Shown: one piece after another, positions 9,437 through 35,049 of the stretch
Position numbering within the stretch: the first letter of the stretch is position 1
How the letters are laid out: every line of letters begins with the position of its first letter
Assembly (NCBI GenBank): GCA_027619415.1
Contig: JAQCFO010000010.1
Span: forward strand, 1 to 53,291
DNA from: Bacteroidota bacterium
GTDB lineage: Bacteria > Bacteroidota > Bacteroidia > Flavobacteriales > Flavobacteriaceae
Direction of reading: 5' to 3'
Length of the DNA: 53,291 nucleotides
Made by a program: the position numbers and the translations under genes
The notes under the pieces: generated by a model
The model's database searches: none
Told to the model about the DNA's origin: nothing
What the model saw: the letters and a program-made list of their open reading frames with translations, nothing else

Positions 9437-9853
9437 TTATTTTTTTACTGAAATAGTTTTTTTAGAAATATTATGATACTCTTCTCTTTTTGGAAAAGTA
9501 ATTGATAAAACTCCGTTTCTGTATAATGAGTCTACCTTTTCAATATCAATTGAGTCCGGAATATCATAAGATTTATTAAAAGAAGAATATTTAAACTCCT
9601 GAATAGTGTAGTTATAATCTGATTCTTGATCGATATCTAAAATTGAAATATTTAATATCCTGTTTTCAATTTCAATTTTAAAATCATTATTAGATTTTCC
9701 AGGAATTGCTAATTCCAAAACATAATGCTTGTCATTCTGTTTTATGTTTGTTAAAGGACAAGAATTATTTGGTACATTAATGTTCCAATTATTTTTAAAA
9801 AATTCATCAAAAATAATTGGGAATAAAGATGATTGCGTTTTAATTAAGTTCAT
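9437..9853 (-). CDS. Small heat-shock protein, Hsp20/alpha-crystallin family
   Basis: 138 aa ATP-independent holdase. The alpha-crystallin domain runs from about residue 35 to 122 and ends with the family signature RNGVLSITFPK (112-122). The C-terminal anchoring motif is I-S-V (134-136) in KKTISVKK. The N-terminal arm is short and hydrophobic (LFPIIFDEFF). There is no TAnnTTTG box upstream. Instead, a promoter-like element at 9895-9930 is shared in register with htpG, and two GACA/TGTC palindromes lie farther upstream. The 116-bp gap to sucC holds all of these. The gene is expected to be strongly stress-regulated and monocistronic. Confidence 0.93.
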   Translation of the reverse strand: MNLIKTQSSLFPIIFDEFFKNNWNINVPNNSCPLTNIKQNDKHYVLELAIPGKSNNDFKIEIENRILNISILDIDQESDYNYTIQEFKYSSFNKSYDIPDSIDIEKVDSLYRNGVLSITFPKREEYHNISKKTISVKK

Positions 9854-9894: not shown

Positions 9895-9930
9895 AATCAA
9901 ATTAAATACCAGACAATAAAACAAGACAAA
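9895..9930 (-). promoter_or_regulatory. Putative heat-shock promoter of hsp20, shared with htpG
   Basis: Read on the minus strand: TTTGTC (9930-9925), 13 nt, TGGTAT (9911-9906), 4 nt, TTTGATT (9901-9895). The same blocks with the same spacings occur at 33118-33153 before htpG. TTTGTC occupies the -33 position, and TTTG of the last block sits where the normal -7 TTTG would be, but the preceding TA of TAnnTTTG is absent. The predicted transcription start is near 9891, giving a leader of about 38 nt. The identity is read directly; the heat-shock role is inferred from the two genes that share it. Confidence 0.55.
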
Positions 9931-9937
9931 ATGTCTT
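9923..9937. repeat. Palindrome AAGAC-N5-GTCTT overlapping the hsp20 -33 element
   Basis: A 15-bp inverted repeat with 5-bp arms centred on AAAAT. It overlaps the TTTGTC -33 block of the hsp20 promoter, the place for a repressor or activator site. It shares the GACA/TGTC half-site with the palindrome at 9956-9968 and with three TGTC direct repeats before htpG. Confidence 0.45.
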
Positions 9938-9955
9938 TTATTGAAGATAAAATAG

Positions 9956-9968
9956 TGACATAATGTCA
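9956..9968. repeat. Palindrome TGACA-TAA-TGTCA upstream of hsp20
   Basis: A perfect 13-bp inverted repeat (5-bp arms, 3-nt centre) immediately after the sucC stop codon and about 26 bp upstream of the hsp20 -33 block. It has no T-tract, so it does not look like a sucC terminator. A regulator-binding site is more likely. It is not CIRCE, which is TTAGCACTC-N9-GAGTGCTAA. Confidence 0.4.
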
Positions 9969-33100: not shown

Positions 33101-33125
33101 TTGTCGATTAATGTCAATTTGTCAC
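33101..33125 (+). repeat. Three TGTC direct repeats upstream of htpG
   Basis: TGTC occurs at 33102, 33112 and 33120, spaced 10 and 8 bp, within TTGTCGATTAATGTCAATT and onward. The third copy forms part of the TTTGTC -33 block of the htpG promoter. The same half-site occurs in the palindromes before hsp20, suggesting one shared regulator. Confidence 0.4.
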
Positions 33126-33153
33126 TTCTAATGGTTTGGTATACAGTTTGATT
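33118..33153 (+). promoter_or_regulatory. Putative heat-shock promoter of htpG, shared with hsp20
   Basis: TTTGTC (33118-33123), 13 nt, TGGTAT (33137-33142), 4 nt, TTTGATT (33147-33153). Blocks and spacings are identical to those upstream of hsp20 at 9930-9895. There is no TAnnTTTG anywhere in this leader. With the TTTG G at -7, the transcript would start near 33157, 18 nt before the ATG. Confidence 0.55.
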
Positions 33154-33174: not shown

Positions 33175-35049
33175 ATGGCTAAAGGTAAAATTAATGTTTC
33201 AGTAGAAAATATATTTCCTCTAATTAAAAAATTTCTTTACAGTGATCATGAGATATTCTTAAGAGAACTTCTTTCTAATGCAACGGATGCAACTTTAAAA
33301 CTTAAACACTTAAGTAGTATTGGTGAAAATAAAATAAAAATTGGTGATCCAATTATTGAAATTAAGATAGATAAAAAAGGAAAGAAAATTCATTTAACTG
33401 ACCAAGGAATTGGGATGTCAATGGATGAAGTTAAAAAATATATAAACCAAGTTGCTTTTTCTGGTGCTGAAGAGTTTTTAGAAAAATACAAAGATAGCGC
33501 AAAAGATAGCGGAATAATCGGACACTTCGGACTTGGATTTTATTCAGCATTTATGGTTGCTGAAAAAGTAGAGATAATCACTAAATCATATAAAAAGGAA
33601 CCTGCAGCTCACTGGGTTTGCGATGGATCACCTGAATATTCACTTGTAAAAAGTGATAAAAAAGAAAGAGGAACAGAAATAATTTTACACATAAGTAAAG
33701 ACTCAAAAGAATTTTTAGAAGAGGCTAGAATCAACACCTTACTTAATAAATACAACAAATTCATGCCTGTTCCTATCAAGTTTGGAACTAAAGAAATAAC
33801 TAATAAAGTTGGAAAAGGAGATAAAGAAAAAGAAGTTAAAGAAACTGTAGACAACATAATTAACAACCCTAATCCAGCTTGGACAAAATCTCCCTCAGAT
33901 CTTAATGAAGAATCTTACAAAGATTTTTACAGAGAATTATATCCAATGCAATTTGAAGAACCATTATTTAATATTCATTTAAATGTAGATTACCCATTTA
34001 ATCTAACTGGAATTTTATACTTTCCAAAAATTTCAAATGACATTAACGTTCAAAAAGATAAGATACAACTTTATCAAAATCAAGTGTTTGTAACCGACAA
34101 TGTTGAAGGAATTGTACCTGAATTTTTAACATTGCTTAGAGGAGTAATAGACTCCCCAGACATTCCGCTAAACGTTTCAAGAAGTTACTTACAAGCTGAT
34201 GGTGCGGTAAAAAAAATAAGCAACTATATAACTAGAAAAGTTGCCGATAAATTGAATTCTCTTTTTACAAAAGATAGAGCAGGTTTTGAAAAAAAATGGA
34301 ATGATATTAAAGTTATCATTGAATACGGAATGCTTAGTGAAGAGAAGTTTTTTGATAAAGCTCAAAAATTCGCTTTATACCCAACCGTAAATGAAACTTA
34401 TTTTACTTTTGAAGAATTAAAAGCAAAAGTTTCTAAAAATCAGACAGATAAAGATGGGAATTTAATCATTCTCTATGCTTCTAATAAAAATGAACAGCAT
34501 TCTTATATAGAAGCAGCAAAAGAAAAAGGTTACGAAATACTTTTACTTGACTCTCCAATAATTAGTCATCTGATTCAAAAAATCGAAACTAGTAATAAAA
34601 AATTAAATTTTTCTAGAGTTGACGCTGATGTTATTGATAAGCTTATTAAAAAAGAAAATGAAGAAGTATCAAAACTTGATGAAAAAGAAAAAGAAAAATT
34701 AAAAACAATTGTCGAAAGTGTTGTGCCTAAAGAAAAGTACACTGTTCAACTAGAAGCTATGGACAGTACTGCAGCTCCATTTATAATTACACATCCTGAA
34801 TTTATGAGAAGAATGAAAGAGATGCAACAAAGCGGTGGAAATAGTATGTTCGGCAATATGCCAGAAATGTATAATTTAATTATAAATGTAAATAATACTA
34901 TTTGCACTGAAATATTAAATTCAAAAAGCAAAGACAAAAAAGAAAGACTAATTAAGCAATCTTTAGATTTAGCTAGGTTATCTCAAAATTTATTAAAAGG
35001 AGAAGAACTTACCTCATTTATAAAAAGAAGTATTGATTTAATAAAATAA
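33175..35049 (+). CDS. htpG: Chaperone protein HtpG (Hsp90)
   Basis: 624 aa, the normal length. The GHKL ATPase domain has FLRELLSNATDA (28-39, with catalytic E31 and magnesium ligand N35), DQGIGM and GHFGLGFYSAFM. The middle domain has LPLNVSRSYLQ-like sequence (DIPLNVSRSYLQ). The C-terminal dimerisation domain ends in a lysine-rich stretch. The linker between N and middle domains (about 215-235) is charged. It refolds stress-damaged and client proteins. It is probably heat-inducible through the promoter shared with hsp20, and may read on into the frameshifted gene 3 nt downstream. Confidence 0.97.
   Translation: MAKGKINVSVENIFPLIKKFLYSDHEIFLRELLSNATDATLKLKHLSSIGENKIKIGDPIIEIKIDKKGKKIHLTDQGIGMSMDEVKKYINQVAFSGAEEFLEKYKDSAKDSGIIGHFGLGFYSAFMVAEKVEIITKSYKKEPAAHWVCDGSPEYSLVKSDKKERGTEIILHISKDSKEFLEEARINTLLNKYNKFMPVPIKFGTKEITNKVGKGDKEKEVKETVDNIINNPNPAWTKSPSDLNEESYKDFYRELYPMQFEEPLFNIHLNVDYPFNLTGILYFPKISNDINVQKDKIQLYQNQVFVTDNVEGIVPEFLTLLRGVIDSPDIPLNVSRSYLQADGAVKKISNYITRKVADKLNSLFTKDRAGFEKKWNDIKVIIEYGMLSEEKFFDKAQKFALYPTVNETYFTFEELKAKVSKNQTDKDGNLIILYASNKNEQHSYIEAAKEKGYEILLLDSPIISHLIQKIETSNKKLNFSRVDADVIDKLIKKENEEVSKLDEKEKEKLKTIVESVVPKEKYTVQLEAMDSTAAPFIITHPEFMRRMKEMQQSGGNSMFGNMPEMYNLIINVNNTICTEILNSKSKDKKERLIKQSLDLARLSQNLLKGEELTSFIKRSIDLIK

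Follow-up and report, generated by a model that had tools for sequence, protein, structure and literature searches.

Two shared blocks upstream of hsp20 and htpG

The window, meaning the whole stretch of DNA analysed (53,291 nt), comes from a 1.66-Mb genome in 61 contigs that is 86% complete, and carries hsp20 and htpG, whose originally predicted identities are upheld by profile matches (Table 1). Upstream of both genes lies the 36-bp arrangement TTTGTC-N13-TGGTAT-N4-TTTGATT, at 9895-9930 on the minus strand 5' of hsp20 and at 33118-33153 on the plus strand 5' of htpG. Searches of the window and the genome with controls confirmed this register match, coordinates included: at up to three mismatches the window holds these two matches only, against a mean of 0.08 in shuffles, and 0 of 100 shuffles contained two. 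At zero mismatches, the two copies before hsp20 and htpG are the only ones in the 1.66 Mb, and the reversed control yielded none.

TAnnTTTG, the -7 box of the Bacteroidota housekeeping promoter, occurs within 150 bp upstream of 16 of the 45 non-overlapping ORFs of at least 90 aa in the window and was found in neither the hsp20 nor the htpG leader, bearing out the claim that both leaders lack a box that other genes possess; the hsp20 leader contains one TA-N3-TTTG. The half-sites likewise occur as first described, as two palindromes before hsp20 and as three TGTC direct repeats (33101-33124) before htpG.

Table 1. Genes and promoter features of the hsp20 and htpG loci, in window coordinates.
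Feature	Position	Strand	Basis
hsp20, small heat-shock protein	9437..9853	-	PF00011
TTTGATT, -12 region of the predicted hsp20 sigma-54 promoter; -12 base A at 9897, predicted start 9885	9895..9901	-	GG-N10-G spacing, orthologous leaders
TGGTAT, hsp20 -24 element (predicted); TGGCAT/TGGYAY in orthologues	9906..9911	-	leader comparison
AGACATTTTGTCT, hsp20 proximal activator site (predicted), 12 nt from TGG	9924..9936	-	leader comparison
TGACATTATGTCA, hsp20 distal activator site (predicted), 32 bp farther	9956..9968	-	leader comparison
TTGTC, degenerate third half-site 5' of htpG	33101..33105	+	sequence
TGTCAATTTGTCA, htpG activator site (predicted), 12 nt from TGG	33112..33124	+	leader comparison
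TGGTAT, htpG -24 element (predicted)	33137..33142	+	genome search, leader comparison
TTTGATT, htpG -12 region (predicted); -12 base A at 33151, predicted start 33163	33147..33153	+	genome search, leader comparison
htpG, HSP90 chaperone	33175..35049	+	NF003555, PF00183

Sigma-54 identity of the promoters

Judged by their sequence, the hsp20 and htpG blocks are sigma-54 promoters of the form TGGYAY-N4-TTTG, with the GG-N10-G that marks the spacing of -24 and -12 elements; this spacing is present in both leaders and was overlooked in the original prediction. There, TTTGATT had been taken for a variant -7 box of the housekeeping promoter, which is wrong: TGGTAT corresponds to the sigma-54 -24 element and TTTGA to the -12 element, so that transcription would be expected to start 12 nt past the -12 A. 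The -12 base is not classical, with GA instead of GC in both leaders. Among 68 chaperone sites, 40 read GA, 19 GC and 9 GT, the C being found chiefly at grpE, and because GA prevails and GC is present in only 19, this base is regarded as relaxed.

The genome itself encodes rpoN, with all three Pfam domains, together with a gene for an enhancer-binding activator. In relatives, rpoN was found in 59 of 60 genomes, including one of only 345 kb (G051), and was missing from one that is 62% complete (G018). The -24/-12 pattern alone was rejected as a definition of the regulon, giving 15 matches against 6 for the reversed control, with 12 of the 15 inside ORFs; since the pattern is unspecific on its own, an activator site is required for specificity.

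A probable activator site at a fixed upstream position

The hsp20 palindromes and the htpG direct repeats can be read as one motif, TGWCA-N3-TGWCA, held at a fixed offset from the -24/-12 elements. Ending 12 nt upstream of TGG and centred at about -45, this motif is a probable activator site. Sites as near as -45 are unusual among sigma-54 enhancer-binding proteins.

Comparison of orthologous leaders, proposed alongside the original prediction, found the blocks conserved in relatives. The 73 leaders (22 htpG, 18 hsp20 and 33 groES) were retrieved by protein homology and not by motif, and the short loci L045, L057 and L058 were left out of scoring. TGGYAY-N5-TTG was matched at 7 or more of 9 positions in 69 of the 73, and no GG site reached 7 of 9 in the other four (L042, L162, L190, L202). 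Exact TGWCA words cluster at spacing 12 in 18 htpG, 8 hsp20 and 16 groES leaders, and also at spacing 20, with additional clusters in hsp20 leaders at spacings 44 (14 leaders) and 52 (10 leaders). Within the genus, spacing 44 is occupied in 14/14 scored hsp20 leaders and spacings 20 and 12 in 12/12 scored htpG leaders, while spacing 12 is occupied in 6/10 htpG leaders outside it. Applied strictly and jointly, the promoter and TGWCA criteria retained 42 of the 73 leaders (shuffled mean 0.005, maximum 1) and missed 31; the shuffles used for these leaders, for the half-sites and for the miaB leaders below preserve base composition and not dinucleotides. The top-scoring GG site of another 8, all groES leaders, is separated from a TGWCA by 3-4 nt and is probably a hairpin 5' of groES.

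Gene set and taxonomic spread

Searched with the half-site core at up to one mismatch, the genome yielded 9 matches against 2 in the control. Exactly five of the nine are intergenic, and they precede htpG, hsp20, dnaK, grpE-dnaJ and groES-groEL (names checked with Pfam); the genome-wide search suggested in the original prediction came out positive. clpB and lon are absent among these matches. The other four (C2:3403, C2:27832, C40:3413, C49:51644) were rejected as chance, all lying inside ORFs. The same core gave 4 matches against 1 in relative G010 and 7 against 3 in G015, where two of the seven, and also C3:617120, were discarded as chance matches inside ORFs.

Of 60 relatives, 58 contain the whole 39-bp element at up to two mismatches, the exceptions being G027 and G051. 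Over the 60 genomes, its matches sum to 179 against 12 for the reversed pattern, and the contexts retrieved comprise dnaK, grpE-dnaJ, groES-groEL, htpG and hsp20. Sixty loci were picked automatically and 58 scored (L080 and L094 left out), with 19 sites in hand-chosen loci excluded. Among the 58, 52 sites lie before chaperone genes: 24 htpG, the window's own included, 12 grpE, 12 dnaK, 3 hsp20 and 1 groES. The remaining six consist of one site inside an ORF and five without an assigned gene, of which that in L083 resembles dnaK at a contig end; the L109 site also has no gene assignment.

Across the phylum (395 genomes, up to one mismatch, tallied by hand), the element occurs in 40 of 41 genomes of the family and in all 8 from elsewhere in the order, then in 23 of the 49 from other parts of the class and 14 of 297 in other classes, against 5 control matches overall. 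Outside the order, its spread is patchy.

A candidate activator beside groESL

The genome contains six PF00158 matches, two of which are full sigma-54 interaction domains. One belongs to a protein whose AAA+ domain, with a GAFTGA loop, starts at residue 14 and is followed by a C-terminal Fis-type HTH (PF02954); no other N-terminal domain was found with Pfam, that is, the protein is sensor-less. A few orthologues read GSFTGA, GAFTDA or GAFTSA in the loop, and the HTH recognition stretch ISERTLYRK is almost invariant among Bacteroidota orthologues. On these features and its genomic setting, the miaB-linked AAA+/Fis-HTH protein is the best candidate for the regulator that would act at TGWCA-N3-TGWCA.

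Orthologues were found in 58 of 60 relatives, the exceptions being 79% (G006) and 51% (G013) complete. Three genomes (G025, G056, G058) have a match broken within the linker, and the matches listed include no C-terminal part for G056. In three genomes that are 99-100% complete (G028, G029, G051), the miaB-linked protein is the sole activator detected; for G051, Pfam confirmed its domains, including the DNA-binding domain.

The gene order is miaB-activator-lptE-(TPR-like ORF)-secG-groES-groEL. Among 18 fetched loci, miaB is found at most 1 kb upstream, in the same orientation, in 17 (exception L165) and groEL lies downstream in 13, one of which (L164) has no called groES; groES-groEL are not at the activator locus in L152, L156, L157, L160 and L165. 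Among the 80 named loci listed, groES is downstream in 21, including Tenacibaculum, Lacinutrix, Flavobacterium, Gillisia and Dyadobacter, and the others listed include many short contigs and distant activators. In a Bacteroides record, activator-lptE-secG is retained, with miaB and groES absent from the stretch examined. The closest named record among the matches listed is Flavobacteriaceae bacterium UWMA-0351 (L180), in which the miaB, activator, lptE, secG, groES and groEL proteins share 86-94% identity with reference proteins from the window's genus.

The other protein with a full PF00158 domain (L004) carries a receiver domain and was ruled out as the TGWCA binder, as no DNA-binding domain was found. 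Its loop reads GAFTSA, which was not counted against it because the same loop occurs in one orthologue of the miaB-linked activator. About 3 kb past the grpE-dnaJ promoter of the same genome (C11; L100 4552-5718) lies the gene for a second AAA+ protein, which has a receiver domain but lacks a DNA-binding domain; such a gene occurs at similar distances from that promoter in G010, G015 and G016. The genome also holds a classical-looking sigma-54 site without a TGWCA site, TTGGTAT-N5-TTGCT (C18:90285-90302; L102 / L011), preceding a 52-aa ORF and a putative peptidase gene named by eye; this site might be served by the activator that lacks a DNA-binding domain.

A palindrome before the miaB operon

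What ties the protein to the motif most strongly is the regulator's own operon, which bears the motif of its supposed targets, placed so as to block the sigma-A polymerase. At up to one mismatch, TGWCA-N3-TGWCA is present in 41 of 49 miaB leaders (shuffled mean 1.74, maximum 6), including those in records of Hymenobacter, Dyadobacter and Saprospiraceae; in the source genome, it lies at L149 1121-1133 (C49), before the miaB-activator operon. In 31 of the 41, the palindrome sits 16-20 nt before TAnnTTTG and hence overlies the sigma-A -33 region; in 8, the distance is 8-11 nt, and 2 have no TAnnTTTG. This placement suggests that the activator represses its own operon. The palindrome was not found in 8 of the 49 leaders, among them that of the 345-kb genome.

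That genome (G051), a single contig from the same order, keeps rpoN and one activator and retains the order miaB-activator-secG-groES-groEL (190000-209000; L150). A perfect palindrome stands in its groES leader 23 nt (12+11) before TGGCAT, within A and T runs, and could be a terminator instead; for this reason, and because its distance from TGG is 23 and not 12 nt, it is given little weight. The retention of rpoN with a single activator is firmer evidence than this palindrome.

Relation to known systems

Sigma-54 control of chaperone genes in Bacteroidota is already known from two studies. The main text of PMC9723704 describes mapped starts in F. psychrophilum with a sigma-54 motif (SM4) before groES-groEL, dnaK, grpE-dnaJ, htpG, lon, clpB and skp, and the retrieved text of PMC12316311 predicts such control for GroEL, GroES, IbpA, GrpE, DnaJ and DnaK, enriched in Flavobacteriia. 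The original remark of knowing no described Bacteroidota heat-shock element of this form therefore does not stand as far as the sigma-54 promoters are concerned. According to the text of PMC9723704, sigma-54 promoters in F. psychrophilum also serve gliding and other genes and are induced on blood agar, under osmotic stress and in plasma, heat not being shown in the passages concerned. The -24/-12 motif and the chaperone genes are the same as here, but that text counts three PF00158 proteins and assigns none to chaperones, and neither TGTCA nor TGGCA occurs in its main text. The gene set in PMC12316311 is likewise the same; its retrieved text contains 'UAS' 0 times and names no upstream activator site or chaperone-specific activator. 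Its reference 80, given as the source for sigma-54 dependence of grpE and groES in both B. thetaiotaomicron and F. psychrophilum, has a title concerning the symbiont Blattabacterium, and this experimental support may be mis-cited. The fixed proximal TGWCA-N3-TGWCA, its activator and the miaB operator were unreported in the literature searched, which comprised few subscription papers and no preprints or supplements.

The candidate resembles PspF in combining an AAA+ domain with a Fis-type HTH and no N-terminal regulatory domain. It differs in its targets and site, in a long variable linker before the HTH and in a gene position beside miaB, lptE and groESL, and its match to the PspF family TIGR02974 (NCBIfam) falls below the cut-off. 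Sensor-less enhancer-binding proteins such as PspF do exist.

The targets groESL, dnaK, grpE, dnaJ, hsp20 and htpG are also those of HrcA/CIRCE and sigma-32 control. The control proposed here is positive and acts via sigma-54. HrcA scored above cut-off in 0 of 60 relatives, with one weak match below it (G047), against 7 of 14 control genomes in the same search, and CIRCE, at up to three mismatches, gave 0 matches in the window, upholding its predicted absence.

Alternative explanations

The sigma-54 promoters may be real while another stress regulator binds TGWCA-N3-TGWCA, the miaB-linked activator being one of its targets and acting without this site. An ordinary transcription factor would fit both the fixed 12 nt and a position overlapping the sigma-A -33 region at miaB, and the assignment of the activator to the site is itself drawn from sequence. 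Sigma-54, however, requires an AAA+ activator, G028, G029 and G051 show only one, equipped with a DNA-binding domain, and TGWCA is the recurring upstream element, so that we regard this alternative as unlikely.

The reading first offered, in which TTTGATT is the -7 box of a housekeeping variant or an ECF promoter and a TGTC-binding factor acts alongside, could draw on the TTTG shared with TAnnTTTG and on the AT-rich genome; it is very improbable, given that GG-N10-G is kept across families, that the TA of the -7 box is absent and that in F. psychrophilum the starts mapped for these genes bear a sigma-54 motif (PMC9723704). What endures of the heat-shock regulon then envisaged is a shared promoter class with a predicted TGTC-binding factor and without CIRCE in the window, to which the lack of HrcA above its cut-off in the 60 genomes can be added; the variant housekeeping promoter does not endure. 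TTTG-like words are also frequent in an AT-rich genome, yet the excess over reversed and shuffled controls and the conservation across families leave chance likeness or an old duplication with a negligible probability.

Proposed mechanism and significance

To our knowledge, the control of core heat-shock genes in Bacteroidota is poorly defined. We consider it highly probable that a sigma-54 chaperone regulon, comprising htpG, hsp20, dnaK, grpE-dnaJ and groES-groEL, is run by the miaB-linked activator at TGWCA-N3-TGWCA. Sigma-54 RNA polymerase would bind TGGYAY-N4-TTTG[A/C/T] at -24/-12 and wait as a closed complex; the dedicated activator, encoded between miaB and lptE, would bind its site at about -45 and, adjoining the polymerase at a fixed distance, would use ATP to open the complex. 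This activator probably also acts as a repressor of its own miaB operon, where it would cover the sigma-A -33 region. PspA is known to hold PspF inactive, and by analogy we would guess that free chaperone holds the activator inactive. Binding of the activator to the site, autorepression and heat as the signal are what we infer here.

More broadly, it is possible, though somewhat more doubtful than probable, that Bacteroidia have swapped the textbook heat-shock regulators for one sensor-less, groESL-linked sigma-54 activator that works from a fixed site near -45 without looping, represses itself and is governed by chaperone titration. A fixed, promoter-proximal activator site would be a departure from the looping by which sigma-54 activation is usually pictured, and such a system, if true, would explain why rpoN and a single activator are retained even by the 345-kb relative. 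The analysis yields a candidate regulator, a site, a gene set and a putative autoregulatory loop, conserved across the order and partly across the class.
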